From assembly GCA_017470005.1 (NCBI GenBank), contig JAFUFH010000003.1, positions 1 to 32,955 on the forward strand: a DNA stretch of 32,955 nt. Direction: 5' to 3'. Position numbers and translations under genes: made by a program. Numbering within the stretch: the stretch's first letter is position 1; each line of letters starts with the position of its first letter. The notes under the pieces were generated by a model that worked only from the letters and a program-made list of their open reading frames with translations, was not told where the DNA came from and searched no databases. Positions 2,682 to 18,765 of the stretch are shown piece after piece. This stretch comes from Bacilli bacterium (GTDB lineage Bacteria > Bacillota_I > Bacilli_A > RFN20 > CAG-288).

Positions 2682-2721
2682 GTTATTATTTTTTTTGTTA
2701 TGTAAATAACTTTTTGTATTG

Positions 2722-2737
2722 TGGCACTTTTGTGGCA
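2722..2737 (+). promoter_or_regulatory. Sigma-54-like -24/-12 promoter, copy 1 (peptide 1)
   Basis: TGGCAC-TTTTG-TGGCA. The GG (2723-2724) and GC (2735-2736) are separated by exactly 10 bases, as sigma-54 promoters require (consensus TGGCAC-N5-TTGCA), with a single mismatch. Transcription would start near 2748, 32 bases before the peptide start. The element can also be read as a direct repeat TGTGGCA with an 11-bp pitch, so an operator for another regulator is the alternative. Confidence 0.6.
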
Positions 2738-2779
2738 AATCATATGTTAAAATGAATTTGCTAAAGGAGAAAAGCAGAT

Positions 2780-3079
2780 ATGAAAGAAGAATTATTAAAA
2801 GGATTAACTGAAGAACAACTTGCTAAAGTGAAGGCGTGCAAAAACAATGAAGAAATCATAAAAGTTGCCAAAGAAGAAGGCTTCGAATTAAACGAAGAAC
2901 AATTAGCTGCTATCGCTGGTGGTGGAGTTTGCAGCAGTCTTACTCGCACTTGCCCTGAGTGTGGCGAATACTGGGATATCCATTCCTATGGAAATAGATG
3001 GGAATGCCGAGATTGCGGTTGTTGGTGGGATAAGAATGGAATCCTCGAACACGGCAAAAAATATAAGAAGAAAAAATAA
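2780..3079 (+). CDS. Nif11-type leader peptide with Cys-rich zinc-ribbon-like core (RiPP precursor candidate)
   Basis: 99 residues. The start is preceded by AAAGGAG at a good distance. Residues 1-48 have the features of Nif11-type leaders: a Lys/Glu-rich amphipathic helix containing LLKGLTEEQLAKVKA, then ELNEEQLAAIAGGG, ending in a Gly-Gly(-Gly) cleavage-type motif. The core after it has six Cys: V-C-S-S, T-C-P-E-C-G and E-C-R-D-C-G-C. The C-P-x-C-G and C-x-x-C pairs about 13 residues apart look like a zinc ribbon. The tail is very basic (KKYKKKK). No lanthionine, radical-SAM or cyclodehydratase enzyme and no peptide exporter lies nearby; the next gene is a HipA-like kinase with the same promoter type. 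The leader is assigned by pattern recognition. The product could be a RiPP or a metal-binding peptide. Confidence 0.75.
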   Translation: MKEELLKGLTEEQLAKVKACKNNEEIIKVAKEEGFELNEEQLAAIAGGGVCSSLTRTCPECGEYWDIHSYGNRWECRDCGCWWDKNGILEHGKKYKKKK

Positions 3080-3110
3080 TTTTCAAGCCATCTTAATCGT
3101 AGAACAAATA

Positions 3111-3133
3111 AAGCCGCACAGTTGCGGCTTTTA
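3111..3133 (+). terminator. Terminator of peptide 1 gene
   Basis: A perfect 8-bp GC-rich stem AAGCCGCA/TGCGGCTT with loop CAGT is followed by a short T-rich tail. It separates the first peptide gene from the kinase gene, so each has its own transcript. The remaining 180 bases before 3317 hold AT-rich DNA and the next sigma-54-like element. Confidence 0.75.
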
Positions 3134-3275
3134 GTGTGCTGGTAAAGGATACACGATCAAAAAAGTGATGAATCATTGAAACACGCAGTCTTTTTATTTA
3201 TATAAGAGTTAGTGTTTCTTTTTAGAACAAATATTTTACAACGATATAATATTTTTTGAAATCAAGGGCTTTATG

Positions 3276-3291
3276 TGGCACTTTTATGGCA
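3276..3291 (+). promoter_or_regulatory. Sigma-54-like -24/-12 promoter, copy 2 (kinase)
   Basis: TGGCAC-TTTTA-TGGCA has the same geometry as copy 1: GG at 3277-3278, GC at 3289-3290, 10 bases between. The predicted start, near 3302, leaves only about 15 bases before the kinase start codon and no Shine-Dalgarno sequence. Confidence 0.6.
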
Positions 3292-3316
3292 GTATATGTT
3301 TTAAAATGATACTGTC

Positions 3317-4522
3317 ATGAATAGAATTGAAGAATATATTTTGATGTATCAAGATGATGAAGTCCTTTCTTTTCGTGTGTCTTTTGGTGAAAGAAATCGT
3401 GTCCAAGTTTTAGAAAAATTAGAACATTTTGAAAAAGCTCCTTTCGGTATGAAAGAAGAGACGAAACAAGAAGAATTGGATCGAATCCTTTATAAGTTTT
3501 TCAATGGACGAACTTTGGCTTGTACTAGATGGGATTATGAAGACATCATCAAAAACACGGGATGTCATGATGATTTTGAATTATCTTTTAAAGGTCATGG
3601 TCTTTCTTTGAGCAATCATTATTGGTATAAAAAACCTGGAGAAAAACTAAAATATAAAGATATCAACTTTTTCACAAACAAATGGGATGATAGTTTTGCT
3701 AGGGCGGTTTTAAGCGGCAATTATGAAGCCTTAAAAGGGGTGGATTTAAATGTTCCCGATATCGTCACTTGCGGTAAAGCGATCAAAGGTTGGCTTTGTG
3801 AAGACAAACCTAGATTATATAAACTCGGAATTCTAAAAGATCATAACCAAGAATGTTTATCTGAGGTTTTGACCTCTAAACTCGCACAAAGATTATTGAA
3901 AGAAGATGAAGTGTTGGATTATGAATTGACGGAAATCTATGGTAAATATGCTTCGGTTTCAGAAGTGATGATTAAAGAGGATGAAGAATTTGTCACTTTT
4001 AGCGATATTTTTCCGGAAGAAATTCAAAAACTTTATCATTGCAGAAGAAGAGATAAAGATAGTGAAAAGAAGTTCTTACAATCAGTAAAGGAAATCCCTA
4101 TTCCTGGATTACCTACTTACTTTGTAAAACTATTTTGTTTAACTAGTTTATGTTGTTTATCTGATTTGCACTTAGATAACATTGCCGCGATTCGAAATAC
4201 GAAAACAGGCAAGATGAGAACGGCTCCCTTCTTTGATTTAGCTGGAGGGTTTGGCAGTTCAGTAAGAGGGAAAGAATTATTATTGACTCTGAATCAAGCA
4301 GTCTTATTCTTGATTTGTTTCGGATTTGGAAGCTTTGATCCGGAGTGGGATTATTCTTGGTATAAGAAAGAAAGATTGATTGGATTTGAACAAGAAATAC
4401 AAGAAATTCTTTCAAAGAGTGATTACTATTCCGAAACACTGATTGAGAATATTATTACCATATATCAACAACAAAAGTTCGCTTTAGACCAAACTTCTAA
4501 TATTTCTTTGACAAGAGAGTGA
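3317..4522 (+). CDS. HipA-like protein kinase between two Nif11-leader peptide genes
   Basis: 401 residues. The C-terminal half has the active-site pattern of HipA-fold kinases: a catalytic loop LSDLHLDN with Asp283, His285 and Asn288, then PFFDLAGGFG with a metal-binding-type Asp307. A candidate ATP-binding lysine (Lys169 in LYKLG) and the following Glu179/Glu183 helix fit. The N-terminal part resembles HipA-like proteins widespread in gut Firmicutes (GLSLSNHYW, then a W/F-rich stretch). There is no HipB-like antitoxin gene beside it, so a classical toxin-antitoxin role is not supported. It sits between two leader-peptide genes with the same sigma-54-like promoter, so phosphorylation or another modification of these peptides is a reasonable inference, not shown. 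The start ATG lacks a ribosome binding site. Confidence 0.7.
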   Translation: MNRIEEYILMYQDDEVLSFRVSFGERNRVQVLEKLEHFEKAPFGMKEETKQEELDRILYKFFNGRTLACTRWDYEDIIKNTGCHDDFELSFKGHGLSLSNHYWYKKPGEKLKYKDINFFTNKWDDSFARAVLSGNYEALKGVDLNVPDIVTCGKAIKGWLCEDKPRLYKLGILKDHNQECLSEVLTSKLAQRLLKEDEVLDYELTEIYGKYASVSEVMIKEDEEFVTFSDIFPEEIQKLYHCRRRDKDSEKKFLQSVKEIPIPGLPTYFVKLFCLTSLCCLSDLHLDNIAAIRNTKTGKMRTAPFFDLAGGFGSSVRGKELLLTLNQAVLFLICFGFGSFDPEWDYSWYKKERLIGFEQEIQEILSKSDYYSETLIENIITIYQQQKFALDQTSNISLTRE

Positions 4523-4535
4523 CACTTTTGTGGCA
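4520..4535 (+). promoter_or_regulatory. Sigma-54-like -24/-12 promoter, copy 3 (peptide 2)
   Basis: TGACAC-TTTTG-TGGCA. The -24 GG is GA here, but the -12 GC (4533-4534) and the 10-base spacing are kept. It begins at the stop codon of the kinase gene. The start would be near 4546, and AAGGAG follows at 4557-4562. Confidence 0.5.
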
Positions 4536-4572
4536 GTTGGAGTGTTATGATATAAAAAGGAGCTGAGATAAT

Positions 4573-4761
4573 ATGAGACGAGAGCTATTAAAAGGATTAA
4601 CCGAAGATCAAATCGAGAAAGTAAAAGCTTGCGATGATATTAAGGACTTGATGCAGCTTGCCAAAGACGAAGGGGTAGAACTAAATGATGAGCAGTTAAA
4701 TGCGATCTCTGGTGGAGCATGTTCTTCCTTCGATGATAATGATGGAATAAGAGTGCCTTAG
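4573..4761 (+). CDS. Second Nif11-type leader peptide, short core (RiPP precursor candidate)
   Basis: 62 residues, with AAGGAG 10 bases upstream of the start. The leader is clearly a paralogue of the first peptide: RELLKGLTEDQIEKVKAC, then VELNDEQLNAISGG. The part after Gly-Gly is only 14 residues, ACSSFDDNDGIRVP, and shares just the C-S-S start with the first core. That leaves a conserved leader with divergent cores, the usual sign of peptides handled by one enzyme. The short core has one Cys and two Ser, so lanthionine chemistry would be limited; phosphorylation by the adjacent kinase is possible (inference). Confidence 0.75.
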   Translation: MRRELLKGLTEDQIEKVKACDDIKDLMQLAKDEGVELNDEQLNAISGGACSSFDDNDGIRVP

Positions 4762-13528: not shown

Positions 13529-13569
13529 AAAACGTAGCAAAAAGTCTTTCAGCAACTTTTCTATGTTTT
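13529..13569 (+). other. 5'-UTR hairpin of the GH3 gene
   Basis: AAAACGTAG plus AAAAGT pairs with ACTTTTCTATGTTTT with a small bulge, about 14 bp around a 9-base loop. It lies between the predicted transcript start and the ribosome binding site at 13579-13585. It could stabilise the mRNA or affect translation. Confidence 0.4.
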
Positions 13570-13594
13570 GACAGCAATAAAGGAGAATATTTTT

Positions 13595-16500
13595 ATGGTT
13601 AAAACGCCGTTCTTAGATTCTTTCTTAGATCAGGAAGTTGTCGCAGGGTACACCTGGGGTAACATCCTTGAGTTTTGGTGGATTGGTCTAATCATCCTTA
13701 TCGTCGCTGCTCTTGCTGTCGTGGGAACCTATTTTGCTTTAAACTGGTTCTTTGGCCGCAACAAATTTAAAGATGGCGATAAAGAAAAAGTAGAAGACTA
13801 TGACAAAGCCCCTAAGGGAGAAAAAAAGGAAGTTGCCAAGACTACTTCCGGTCCTGCAAAGAATGTTATTAAGTGGAAGAGAATGAGAGCTTGGTTCATC
13901 CCAACCGTCCTTGTTTCCGCTATCATTCTTGCACCTGTCGTCTCTTTCTTACCCACTTCCGCTTTTGCAAACTTAATATTCACTCTCGGTGGTTCTCATG
14001 TCGATATCGTCGACACCGAAACTTCTAGACAAGCTGCCGCTGAAGCAGAAAAAAATGTTGTCTCCATTCAAGAAGAAGGTACTGTCCTTTTAAAGAATAG
14101 AAATCAAACCTTACCTCTCAACTTAGAACAAAACAAGAAGGTTAACATCTTCGGTTCTTGCGCCTTTGGTTTATTCTACGGTAATGGTGGTTCTGGTTCC
14201 TTCCAGACCGATGGCCGTGTCAAAGGCTTCCCTAGAACTGCTTTAAAGCTTGAACAAGCCATGAAGGATGAAGGTTTTGAAATCAACAACAACATCTTCA
14301 ACATGATCAAGAATTACTATTCTAGCAACAAGAAAACCATCTCTGTCGCAGAAAGTGATTACGACATCCAGTGCGGTTTCAACAAATATGGCTATTCTGA
14401 AATCGTCAGCAGTAAAGCCCCTTATGACTTTGAACCTCCTGTCAGCGCTTATGAAACTCCTATGGATGAATTGGGAGGCAAAACCTTATTAGAAGACGCC
14501 TTAGAATTCTCTGATACCGCCATCTTCTGTATCACTAGACGTGGTAGTGAAGATGAAGATATGAGAATCGGTGATTTACAACTCAAGCCCAACGAAATCG
14601 CCGCTATCGATATGTTAGAAAGCAACTTCCAGAAGGTCATCATCTTACTCAACGTTCCTACCGTCATGGAAACCGAATTCTTAGATGACTCTGAAATCGA
14701 TGCCGCTATCTATATGGGTCACCCCGGCTTAACTGGTACCAAGGCTATCGCTGAAATCTTGGCTGGTAAAGTCAATCCTTCCGGTCACTTAGTCGACACT
14801 TGGCCTTATGATGTCAAGAGCGCTCCTTCTTATCAAAACTTCGGTAACGACACTACCTTAACTTATTCTTCTGGTGCCGCTGCTAGATCTAGATTCACCA
14901 ACTACATCGAAGGCATCTATGTCGGTTATCGTTATTATGTCACTGCCGCCAAAGAAGGTTTCATCGATTATGAAGATGAAGTCCAGTATTCTTTCGGTCA
15001 CGGCTTATCCTACACTACCTTCGACAAATCTATTGCTAACTACGTCGTCGACGAAGAAAAACAAACTGTCGAAGTCACTGTCGAAGTGAAGAACACTGGC
15101 TCTCTTGCTGGTAAGGATGTCATTCAACTCTACACTCATGCTCCTTACACCAAGGGCGGTATTGAAAAACCTTATTACACCTTAACTGCTTTCCAAAAGA
15201 CTAACCTCATTGAACCTGGTGAAACCAAAGCGTACAAATTAGAATTCGACTATAGAGATTTGGCTTCTTGGTCCACCGAAAAAGGCTACTACGTTTTAGA
15301 AAAGGGTGATTACGAATTCTCTGTCAGAGAAAATGTTTGGGATCTTGCCCAGACTGCTGTCACTGGTAGAGAAAACACAAGAAAATTAACTCTTGCTAAC
15401 GATGTTGAATTCAAGAAATCCTATCAAACTGGCAAAGAATATAAGAACATCTTCCAAGATGTCGAATTCGGTGGCGGTGTCGAAGCCAACACCTACTTAT
15501 CCAGAGCCGACTTCGAAGGAACTTGGCAGAACAAAGCCGACATCTCTCTTGCTTCCAACCCTGATGCTAGCCACTTCCCTGGCGGAGCTAGCAACAACTC
15601 TGGTCCTAACACCTTCACTCTTGTCGACAATCAAATTGACGAAGATATTAAACCTCAAGAAGTCGCAGGTGATTTGACTCTCAGAGACTTAAAAGATGCG
15701 GAATGGGATGATCCTAGATGGGAATCCTTGCTCAATCAAATGAGCTATGGCGATATGGAAAAACTCATCGAATACGGTGGTTTCCAAACTGCAGCTGTCG
15801 AATCTATCGACAAAGCTCAATCTGTTGACTATGATGGTCCTGGTGCCGCGTTCCACTCTGGTACTGGTCACCCCAGTGAAGTTATCGTCGCCTGCTCTTG
15901 GTCTGGTGAAGTCGCCAAACTTATGGGCGAATCCATCGGTAGAGAAGGTGCGGCTCGTGGCTTGACCGGTTGGTATGCTCCTGGTATCAACACTCACCGT
16001 TCTCCTTTCGGCGGACGTAACTTCGAATATTATTCCGAAGATCCTCTCATTGCTGGTATCATGGCTGGTCACACCGCTCAAGGTTCTATGAAATATGGTG
16101 TTTACACCTATGCCAAACACTTCTTACTCAATGAACAAGAAGCTAGCCGTTCTGGTGTCTTCTGCTGGGCTAGTGAACAAGCTATCAGAGAAATCTACGC
16201 TCGTGGCTTTGAAATCTATGTTGACTTAGGTGGTATTGGTATCATGTCCTCCTTCAACTGTGTCGGATCTTATTGGGCTGGTGGTAACAAAGCCTTACTC
16301 ACCACTCTCTTAAGAGAAGAATGGGGATTCCATGGTGTTGTCGTCACTGACTATGCCGGCAGCGACTACATGGCTACCAATATCGGTTTAGTTGCTGGTA
16401 ATGATATTTGGTTAACTCCTAACCAATTGAACAACACCAACAAACCTAGCAGACTCCGTACTTTACTCCCTCACGATGGTCCTATCTACATCAGAAGAGC

Positions 16501-16609
16501 GGCAAAGAATATCCTCTTTGCTTGCGCTCACTCCAACAATGTTTGGACCCTCGATGATTATAAAGCTGTTGGCATCCCTGAAGTTGTCAAAGCTGGTGAT
16601 GGTCATTAA
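13595..16609 (+). CDS. Membrane-anchored glycoside hydrolase family 3 (beta-glucosidase-like), permuted domain order
   Basis: 1004 residues from the ATG behind AAAGGAG at 13579-13585. Two transmembrane helices (about 18-42 and 90-125) frame a Lys-rich loop, so the loop is likely cytoplasmic and the enzyme faces out. The order is unusual. The GH3 alpha/beta sandwich domain comes first (about 160-470, with EGTVLLKN, GSGS and GHPGLTG), then an Fn3-like module (about 490-600). The TIM barrel is last (about 650-1000), with KHFLLNEQE and nucleophile Asp919 in VVTDYAG. Such reversed GH3 proteins are known in rumen bacteria (Butyrivibrio, Ruminococcus albus). It probably cleaves beta-linked oligosaccharides at the cell surface. 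Codons often end in C, unlike most neighbours, which suggests high expression. Confidence 0.88.
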   Translation: MVKTPFLDSFLDQEVVAGYTWGNILEFWWIGLIILIVAALAVVGTYFALNWFFGRNKFKDGDKEKVEDYDKAPKGEKKEVAKTTSGPAKNVIKWKRMRAWFIPTVLVSAIILAPVVSFLPTSAFANLIFTLGGSHVDIVDTETSRQAAAEAEKNVVSIQEEGTVLLKNRNQTLPLNLEQNKKVNIFGSCAFGLFYGNGGSGSFQTDGRVKGFPRTALKLEQAMKDEGFEINNNIFNMIKNYYSSNKKTISVAESDYDIQCGFNKYGYSEIVSSKAPYDFEPPVSAYETPMDELGGKTLLEDALEFSDTAIFCITRRGSEDEDMRIGDLQLKPNEIAAIDMLESNFQKVIILLNVPTVMETEFLDDSEIDAAIYMGHPGLTGTKAIAEILAGKVNPSGHLVDTWPYDVKSAPSYQNFGNDTTLTYSSGAAARSRFTNYIEGIYVGYRYYVTAAKEGFIDYEDEVQYSFGHGLSYTTFDKSIANYVVDEEKQTVEVTVEVKNTGSLAGKDVIQLYTHAPYTKGGIEKPYYTLTAFQKTNLIEPGETKAYKLEFDYRDLASWSTEKGYYVLEKGDYEFSVRENVWDLAQTAVTGRENTRKLTLANDVEFKKSYQTGKEYKNIFQDVEFGGGVEANTYLSRADFEGTWQNKADISLASNPDASHFPGGASNNSGPNTFTLVDNQIDEDIKPQEVAGDLTLRDLKDAEWDDPRWESLLNQMSYGDMEKLIEYGGFQTAAVESIDKAQSVDYDGPGAAFHSGTGHPSEVIVACSWSGEVAKLMGESIGREGAARGLTGWYAPGINTHRSPFGGRNFEYYSEDPLIAGIMAGHTAQGSMKYGVYTYAKHFLLNEQEASRSGVFCWASEQAIREIYARGFEIYVDLGGIGIMSSFNCVGSYWAGGNKALLTTLLREEWGFHGVVVTDYAGSDYMATNIGLVAGNDIWLTPNQLNNTNKPSRLRTLLPHDGPIYIRRAAKNILFACAHSNNVWTLDDYKAVGIPEVVKAGDGH

Positions 16610-16695: not shown

Positions 16696-17424
16696 ATGAG
16701 TGATACCAACATCAAAATTGCTATCGTTGAAGATTCTGTAGAAGATTTAGATCTCTGTGTTTCTCTCTTAAACCGCTACAGCAAGGAAAAGAATTTATCT
16801 TTAGATATTCAAACTTTTTCCAGTGGCGATGCTTTTTTAATGGTGTTTAAAAGTCAATTTGATTTTTTGATCTTTGATATCAACCTCTCTGCGATGAACG
16901 GCATTGATGTGGCAAGAAAAGTTAGAGAAAAAGATGAGGAAGTCATCATTATGTTCACCACCAATCTTGCCAAATACGCCACCAAAGGCTATGAGGTAGA
17001 TGCGATCGATTTTGTCTTAAAGCCCCTCTCCTATCCTTCGTTTTATTTAAGATTGGAAAGAGTGATGAAAAAGCTCTCTAAGAAAAACGATAAATTCATC
17101 GTGATTCCTAGCGATGGCGGCTATAATAAAGTGGAAACCAATTCCATCTTGTATGTAGAAGTTATGTCTCACGATATCCTTTTCCATCTCAAAGATGGGA
17201 AGAAGATAACCACCACAGGAACCTTGAAGAAATTTGAAGAAGAACTAAAAGCTTATTGGTTTATCCGTTGTAATTCTTGTTATCTTGTCAATGCGCACAA
17301 CATCAAACGTGTAGAAAAGCTTGACATTCAATTGGTAAACGGGGAAACTATTGCAATATCACATCCAAAGAAGAAAAGTTTTATGGCAGAAATGAAGAAA
17401 TATATCATGAAGGAGGGAAACTAA
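16696..17424 (+). CDS. LytTR-type response regulator (AgrA/ComE-like)
   Basis: 242 residues. A receiver domain (1-120) has the acidic pair Glu12/Asp13, phosphoacceptor Asp61 in LIFDINLSAMNG, and Lys109 in LKP. A LytTR DNA-binding domain follows (about 135-240), with the core FIRCNSCYLVN and NIKRVE. Such regulators bind direct repeats with about 21-bp pitch. It is followed after 3 bases by the histidine kinase gene, so they form an operon. Likely targets are the GH3 gene just upstream and the CBM lipoprotein gene downstream, both with matching repeats. A regulator responding to a peptide is the usual case for AgrA, but no AgrD/AgrB pair is seen here. Confidence 0.9.
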   Translation: MSDTNIKIAIVEDSVEDLDLCVSLLNRYSKEKNLSLDIQTFSSGDAFLMVFKSQFDFLIFDINLSAMNGIDVARKVREKDEEVIIMFTTNLAKYATKGYEVDAIDFVLKPLSYPSFYLRLERVMKKLSKKNDKFIVIPSDGGYNKVETNSILYVEVMSHDILFHLKDGKKITTTGTLKKFEEELKAYWFIRCNSCYLVNAHNIKRVEKLDIQLVNGETIAISHPKKKSFMAEMKKYIMKEGN

Positions 17425-17427
17425 ACT

Positions 17428-18765
17428 ATGGATCTAAACATGCTATTAAATATGTTTATCTCTTTCACTGTGGAGATTCTTGTCGCCTGTATCTTACTCA
17501 TGAAACATAAGCTAGCTTTCCGTTTCAAGCCTTATATCTCTATTCCTATCGGATTGTTGATTGCTTGGTCAGGTGCTGCTATCAATATTATTATCATGCA
17601 TTTCTTCATGAAACCTGAACAGTGGACAGAAGTGATCAATATTGTCGTCTATGCCCACCCTATCATTACTATTTATGGAGGCCTATTGTTCGCTTATAAG
17701 ATTCGACCGATGAATCTCTTGCTCCTTCTTACGGTCGCCTACACTTTCCAACACATGGCCTATCAGATGGGAATCATCGTCTTAGATACTGGTTTGAACG
17801 TAGAAATCTTTAAAGCTGTAGAAGGTAATTATGACACCTATCAAGTCATCTACAATGTCATTCTTTATTCGGTGAAAGTTGCTGTGTATGTGGGATGTTA
17901 TTTCTCTATTGCTCGTCTTTACATCAAATATTCCAAATATATTCTCTCAAAGTTATTCATCATCATCTTAGGTATTGTCGTGTTCTTAGTGGTCAATGTT
18001 GTCAACGTTTATGTCGCAAACAACTTAGGATGGAATGTGAAATTGAGAGGAATTTTGGCGGGCACACTAATCGTCTTCTGCCTCCTCTTTGACTCTTTGG
18101 TTGTGGGTGGATTCCGCGTGGTGGAACACCGCCAAGAAACCATGCTCATCAAGGCTTCCTTCAACGCCAAGGTCAGACAACAAGAGATGATGGAAAATAC
18201 GATCAACTTCATCAATATGAAGTGCCATGATCTCAGAAAAGAATTGCGCAGATTAAAAGCCAAAAAAGGAGAGTTGACAGATGAAGATTTTGCTCTATTA
18301 GAAGAGTCCTTAAACTTCTATGACAGTTCGGTAAAAACCGGTAATGGCAACATCGATGCTCTCATTCAAGATAAGCTCATCTATTGTCATTCTGTCGGCA
18401 TTGAATTCACTTCTCTTGTGGATGGTGACGCCTTTAAAGATCTCGCCTTCAGCGATGTGTATTTCCTTCTCACGAACATCATTGATAACGCCATTGAAGC
18501 TACAGAAGCGATTGAAGCAAAAGAACACCGTGTTATCTCTTTAACTGCCGCTAGAAAGCAAGGCGTGCTGATGATTGAAGAAACCAATTATTATCAAGGA
18601 GATATCTCTATCAATAATGATGGTTCTATCAAAACCACCAAGACAGAGGATAAGAAGTATCATGGCTTTGGTACTAAGTCTATTGTCTACATCGTCAAGA
18701 AATATAATGGTACGATGGAATATGAGACAACCGATGGTATCTTCAGAATCAGAATCGCAATTTAA
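17428..18765 (+). CDS. Membrane histidine kinase, AgrC-like (GHKL ATPase)
   Basis: 445 residues, with AAGGAGGG just before the start. Six or seven transmembrane helices span residues 1-225. The dimerisation helix has His267 in NMKCHDLRKEL as the likely phosphorylated residue. The GHKL ATPase end has LLTNIIDNAIEA (N box) and a glycine box HGFGTKS. It should phosphorylate the upstream LytTR regulator. The signal is unknown. The location inside a polysaccharide block, with its likely targets on either side, suggests a signal linked to glycan availability or cell density (inference). Confidence 0.9.
   Translation: MDLNMLLNMFISFTVEILVACILLMKHKLAFRFKPYISIPIGLLIAWSGAAINIIIMHFFMKPEQWTEVINIVVYAHPIITIYGGLLFAYKIRPMNLLLLLTVAYTFQHMAYQMGIIVLDTGLNVEIFKAVEGNYDTYQVIYNVILYSVKVAVYVGCYFSIARLYIKYSKYILSKLFIIILGIVVFLVVNVVNVYVANNLGWNVKLRGILAGTLIVFCLLFDSLVVGGFRVVEHRQETMLIKASFNAKVRQQEMMENTINFINMKCHDLRKELRRLKAKKGELTDEDFALLEESLNFYDSSVKTGNGNIDALIQDKLIYCHSVGIEFTSLVDGDAFKDLAFSDVYFLLTNIIDNAIEATEAIEAKEHRVISLTAARKQGVLMIEETNYYQGDISINNDGSIKTTKTEDKKYHGFGTKSIVYIVKKYNGTMEYETTDGIFRIRIAI

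Follow-up and report, generated by a model that had tools for sequence, protein, structure and literature searches.

A HipA-fold kinase as a conserved and dedicated component of a putative gut-bacterial pathway for small exported peptides with Nif11-type leaders

We analyzed a stretch of 32,955 nucleotides (hereafter the window; contig JAFUFH010000003.1, positions 1 to 32,955 of the forward strand, assembly GCA_017470005.1) from a Bacilli bacterium, in which two short peptide genes flank the gene of a HipA-fold kinase. Judged by gene order and sequence, this kinase is a conserved member of what is probably a gut-bacterial pathway making, modifying and exporting small peptides. Its synteny, its co-occurrence with the other components and its separate clade show the kinase to be a dedicated enzyme of the system. 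For the window itself, the reading that we consider somewhat better than an even chance is that it holds kinase and precursor genes forming a satellite of a ribosomally synthesized and post-translationally modified peptide (RiPP)-type system with Nif11-type leaders that is dispersed over the genome, and that the kinase most likely phosphorylates the precursors. The three genes all lie on the forward strand: pep1 (2780-3079, 99 residues), the kinase (3317-4522, 401 residues) and pep2 (4573-4761, 62 residues). Two Nif11-type leader peptides thus flank an intact HipA-fold kinase, as a preliminary description of this DNA, made without database searches, had proposed.

All 34 RiPP-linked kinases (the window kinase, one from contig C65 in the genome of the window, 28 at loci of the order, three from Lachnospiraceae and one from a Clostridia locus) fall in one clade (100/100), apart from ordinary HipA-like kinases. 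A Nif11-type peptide is encoded within 2.5 kb of 26 of the 34 clade kinases versus none of 59 ordinary HipA-like kinases, a comparison set that is 22-29% identical and comes in part from the same genomes. A radical SAM/SPASM maturase lies within the same distance of 21 clade kinases and likewise of none of the 59. Both clade counts are minimum values because some loci are cut by contig ends, and the peptide profile, built from the 11 peptides of this genome, would miss very divergent precursors. By similarity to the C65 proteins, the first ATP-binding cassette protein (ABC1) of an NHLM exporter is found near 24 of the 34. The kinase gene stands mostly directly beside precursor and maturase genes, at distances of 2-600 bp. 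This conserved neighborhood, a shared promoter element and co-occurrence across genomes lend strong support to the proposal that the kinase is part of one system with the peptides.

The HipA fold is known chiefly from bacterial dormancy toxins, and its kinases are studied for their part in persistence as toxins of translation; the fold could mean that a HipA toxin-antitoxin or defense module lies by accident between unrelated peptides. PDC-M03A, a candidate defense model of PADLOC, is matched weakly (E=2.6e-10) and points the same way; the match is partial, covering only 152-328 of the kinase, and falls short of a strong one. However, the gene upstream of the kinase is pep1 and no helix-turn-helix family matches any of the scanned genes, in keeping with the earlier report that a HipB gene is absent beside the kinase. 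The neighborhood is, moreover, conserved with the peptide system, and HipA-like kinases of the generic sort, including some encoded in the same genomes, group in a clade of their own that lacks this neighborhood. The missing HipB and the conserved context lead us to reject a HipBA identity, and we regard an accidental toxin or defense module as very improbable.

Of the 23 genomes in the family to which the window belongs, this one alone has a close kinase, and neither maturase nor peptides are detected in the other members at the thresholds used. Across the order (279 genomes) the kinase is found in 29 genomes, mostly of rumen Bacilli from another family; the peptides are present in all 29 and the maturase in 27. 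In three Lachnospiraceae the kinase stands alone and a maturase of 67-69% identity is encoded at another place in the genome, as in the genome of the window. The Clostridia locus (L157) keeps the arrangement at 31% identity of the kinase and 55% of the maturase, in the order kinase, peptide, maturase, two peptides, HlyD, ABC1 and ABC2, with CxxC-core peptides among the genes. We further note a split system at L087 and L088 (genomes G062 and G074), where kinase and exporters share one locus; in G074, a kinase, a type-A peptide and a maturase lie at another, L104. At maturase loci without an adjacent kinase, a response-regulator receiver gene immediately precedes the maturase or its peptide (L215:8718-9482, L216:10229-10990, L218:10818-11573 and L225:11136-11900, with Pfam confirmation in L215 only) and is a candidate regulator of the system.

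The relation to HipA is faint in sequence, where the Pfam HipA_C match of the window kinase is barely there (E=0.039). A Foldseek search with its AlphaFold model (pLDDT 91.5) returns HipA as the best PDB match (3fbr, E=1.4e-8), followed by CtkA. By its predicted fold, the window kinase is a member of the HipA family. In an alignment of 30 kinase relatives K169, D283, H285, N288 and D307 are invariant, and the catalytic Asp283, Asn288 and Asp307 pointed out in the preliminary description are indeed in place. The clade resembles HipA (of HipBA) and CtkA in fold and catalytic residues but differs from them in having no HipB, in forming a separate clade, in sharing operons with genes of peptide maturation and export, and at position 150, which we take to correspond to the autophosphorylated serine of HipA and which is mostly valine among the relatives. 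The only paralogue in the genome, the C65 kinase, is 53% identical to the window kinase; the two do not pair in the tree, which rules out a recent duplication.

The precursors share a leader and differ in their cores. In pep1, a Nif11-type leader (residues 1-48) ending in AGG is followed by GVCSS and a CxxC-x14-CxxC core of type B, while pep2, a clear homologue of pep1, joins a type-A leader to the core ACSSFDDNDGIRVP. The two leaders are paralogous (60% identity over 48 residues) and both peptides read GG-x(1-2)-C-S-S, as had been noticed before. Both window peptides show the combination of a GG-ended leader with a divergent core that is one mark of a Nif11-leader precursor. Against the Pfam Nif11 model PF07862 (cut-off 23.8 bits), pep1 scores above the cut-off (24.9) and pep2 below it (13.9). 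The pep2 leader is of the short kind found between kinase and maturase genes in complete operons; it is 83% identical over 46 residues to that of the type-A peptide in L104, a kinase-maturase operon, and the window order of kinase and type-A peptide is that of the complete operons L086, L089 and L096 minus maturase and exporters.

A single genome can hold at least 25 peptides, both kinds counted. Those of type A (23 parsed) are short, with a leader resembling ...CDDxxDLLQLAKDEGVEL..., mostly lie beside a kinase or maturase, and carry a [KR]RK[IF][ED][SD] tail in 17 of 23 cases. Type B (56 parsed) occurs in arrays and as scattered copies, and contains CxxC-x(13-26)-CxxC in 56/56, with all four cysteines invariant across 23 of these peptides. 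In both kinds a cysteine follows the GG within five residues (79/79 parsed cores), and a Ser or Thr lies within three residues past that cysteine in 77 of the 79. We label the pep1 core zinc-ribbon-like from its cysteine pattern; the fold is unconfirmed, since the predicted structure of pep1 is poor (pLDDT 67.8) and gives no significant Foldseek match.

The three window genes are further tied together by one promoter-like element, TGTGRCAYWTTTGTGRCA, copies of which lie ahead of each of them, as described earlier. Upstream of pep1 it reads TGTGGCACTTTTGTGGCA (2720-2737, forward strand), with two TGTGGCA copies 11 bp apart and a -10 sequence, TATGTTAAAAT, downstream at 2743-2753. The kinase copy, TGTGGCACTTTTATGGCA (3274-3291, forward), has one mismatch and a -10-like TAAAAT at 3302-3307. 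The pep2 copy, AGTGACACTTTTGTGGCA (4518-4535, forward), also with one mismatch, overlaps the kinase stop codon and is followed by a -10-like sequence on the same strand at about 4546-4556. The element (TGTGRCACwTTTGTGRCA) has 19 sites in the genome at up to one mismatch and 26 at up to two; the reversed-pattern control gives 0 sites, which rules out chance or artifact. In this genome the element stands in front of every one of the 11 peptide genes and of the two kinase genes, with a -10-like sequence after it, and the distance from element to start is about 54-60 bp for peptides and 40-43 bp for kinases. Across genomes, it precedes (at up to two mismatches) 47/83 peptides, 11/34 kinases and 3/195 other operon genes. 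The geometry of a 7+4 bp direct repeat over the -35 region suggests an OmpR/PhoB-type activator.

The element also stands ahead of large lipoprotein or secreted-protein genes on contigs of the same genome (C58:4085, C51:23724 on the reverse strand, C72:5478, C65:11655 and C88:10074 on the reverse strand), so the regulon extends beyond the peptide system. The gene at C58:4085 has a Peptidase_S41 domain. At L052 (C26:1500-7119, reverse strand), also in this genome, two 47-residue peptides, MxxEKKYLKPxxEVIxFxDEDxIRTS, alternate with secreted proteins of about 500 residues. The first of these peptides is directly behind the element (C26:6945), and they may form another exported-peptide family of the regulon. 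A pair of LytTR response regulator and GHKL histidine kinase genes in the window (16696-18765), adjoining a glycoside-hydrolase-like gene (13568-16609), is linked to the peptide promoter element by no evidence that we find.

The Nif11-type family of this genome, with its 11 peptides, is spread over six contigs. Among the scanned window genes, no RiPP enzyme or exporter adjoins the cassette, and to this extent the earlier statement that such genes are missing holds; it does not extend to the genome, where maturase and exporters are found on contig C65. The operon there opens with the kinase, a radical SAM/SPASM protein (464 residues), a Nif11-type peptide (62 residues) and a short HlyD-like protein (130 residues against a 421-position model), and continues with an NHLM ABC transporter bearing a C39 peptidase, a second NHLM ABC protein, a STAS protein and a STAS-APH protein. 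Both exporters score slightly below the equivalog cut-offs (ABC1, TIGR03796, 844.5 bits against 853.3; ABC2, TIGR03797, 658.5 against 709.4). In the same way, the suggestion of a new RiPP-type cassette stands as regards a RiPP-type system and needs amending as regards the window, which is only an incomplete satellite with maturase and exporters elsewhere in the genome. At L016:8203-9668, a STAS protein and then a STAS domain fused to an APH/TIGR02172-type phosphotransferase close the exporter operon, an ending kept in many such operons; the fusion is a second kinase-like protein in the exporter operon. Binning contamination, as an explanation of why this genome alone among the 23 of its family has the system, is made unlikely by infC on contig C92, which holds three of the peptides, as its nearest relatives are in the same genus (up to 81%); this check covered C92 alone. 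One long protein of the window has no near match in the genus.

We propose that the shared element, which is the observed part of the scheme, would switch on peptides and kinase together, and that the peptides would be synthesized with a leader of about 48 residues and GG at its end. Protein families and the conserved operon suggest that the radical SAM/SPASM maturase, encoded elsewhere, would modify the peptides guided by the leader, and that the C39 protease domain of the NHLM exporters would cut after GG and export them. The kinase would phosphorylate the precursors on Ser/Thr, with the Ser/Thr beside the conserved post-GG cysteine, or a near-invariant Ser/Thr at leader position 10, as the best candidate sites, and with the neighboring pep2 and the CxxC-core peptides as expected substrates. 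Phosphorylation of the precursors is likely, and direct action on the peptides is favored because the kinase stands beside precursor and maturase genes and has no HipB partner.

Several observations weigh against precursor phosphorylation by a working satellite set. The Fisher p-values for the neighborhood counts are only indicative, as the genomes are related and shared ancestry is ignored. Neither peptide reaches the TIGR03798 cut-off (32.3 bits; pep1 26.8, pep2 12.8), and on this profile, by which the preliminary description had proposed to judge the leaders, its assignment fails for both, pep1 passing the Pfam Nif11 cut-off instead. Within the order, 7 genomes carry a maturase (one only 43% identical) without a detected kinase and 18 carry peptides without one, several genomes without a detected kinase being incomplete. 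In view of these genomes, the kinase is bound to the system yet not always required, and may be dispensable for it. Window-specific deviations belong here too: the pep2 core lacks the tail typical of most type-A cores, and the kinase carries Lys at position 154, which is Trp in 29 of the 30 aligned sequences, so that this copy may be specialized or drifting. The remaining point against the proposal comes from the relatives of HipA, which phosphorylate translation factors, proteins in the cell, and so fit a regulatory role.

The regulatory role would make the kinase a regulator or self-protection factor whose phosphorylation target, as with HipA, is a protein of the cell, such as an aminoacyl-tRNA synthetase or a regulator, with the peptides controlling it rather than serving as substrates, and with peptide production tied to growth arrest, immunity or feedback. 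This is consistent with the fold matches to HipA and CtkA, with a kinase that can be stand-alone yet co-regulated with the peptides, with the STAS and STAS-APH proteins typical of regulation in C65-type operons, and with the response-regulator gene that some maturase loci carry in place of an adjacent kinase. The usual kinase position beside precursor and maturase genes, however, is that of a tailoring enzyme, and the window has no HipB-like partner; we hold a regulator to be rather unlikely. The tail loss in pep2 and the Trp-to-Lys change at 154, together with the absent maturase and exporters and the long single branch of the window kinase in the tree, would also be expected of a decaying or orphan remnant, in which kinase and pep2 would be what an operon kept after losing its maturase and exporters, with the C65 locus as the only working one. 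Against such decay stand three open genes, intact catalytic residues, near-perfect promoter elements and the recurrence of stand-alone kinases in G113/G120, G211 and Lachnospiraceae, and we find a remnant unlikely, more so than a regulator.

A 2010 paper defined the Nif11-derived and NHLP precursors that go with NHLM exporters, alongside TOMM (YcaO) or lanthionine (LanM) enzymes, and mentioned that NHLP clusters of Burkholderia adjoin a large Ser/Thr kinase (Haft, Basu and Mitchell, PMC2887384); the searched text of that paper mentions neither HipA nor radical SAM. Like those systems (TIGR03798, TIGR03793, TIGR03794, TIGR03796 and TIGR03797), the present system shares the multi-copy GG-ended Nif11-type leaders and the two-ABC NHLM exporter with a HlyD-like protein; unlike those systems, its maturase is of the radical SAM/SPASM type, a HipA-fold kinase is added and the HlyD-like protein is short. 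The layout, a single enzyme set for many precursors with a common Nif11-type leader and varied cores, recalls the prochlorosins, where one enzyme (ProcM) serves many ProcA precursors (PMC10783134), but the cores here are CxxC...CxxC or end in a short basic tail. No LanM is seen at C65 or in the window. As with LxmK of class V lanthipeptides and other RiPP-associated kinases, a kinase-fold enzyme sits inside a peptide pathway; the structural match to LxmK is no more than marginal (9dk3, E=2.4e-3), and no LxmY-like partner was noticed, though no specific search was made. In the open literature that was searched, no HipA-family kinase is described as belonging to a RiPP pathway (two papers that came up look unrelated, judged by their titles), which leaves the novelty provisional.

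As the most far-reaching reading, we tentatively suggest, at slightly less than an even chance, a new RiPP class in gut Firmicutes: Nif11-leader precursors would be phosphorylated by a HipA-fold kinase, a radical SAM/SPASM enzyme would act on the post-GG cysteine, and one enzyme set would serve up to about 25 dispersed, secreted, zinc-ribbon-like peptides in one regulon. If true, a clade devoted to peptide maturation and export would be a new role for the HipA fold, and would bring with it a new type of tailoring enzyme and, among rumen Bacilli and Lachnospiraceae, a large family of CxxC-core peptides destined for export.
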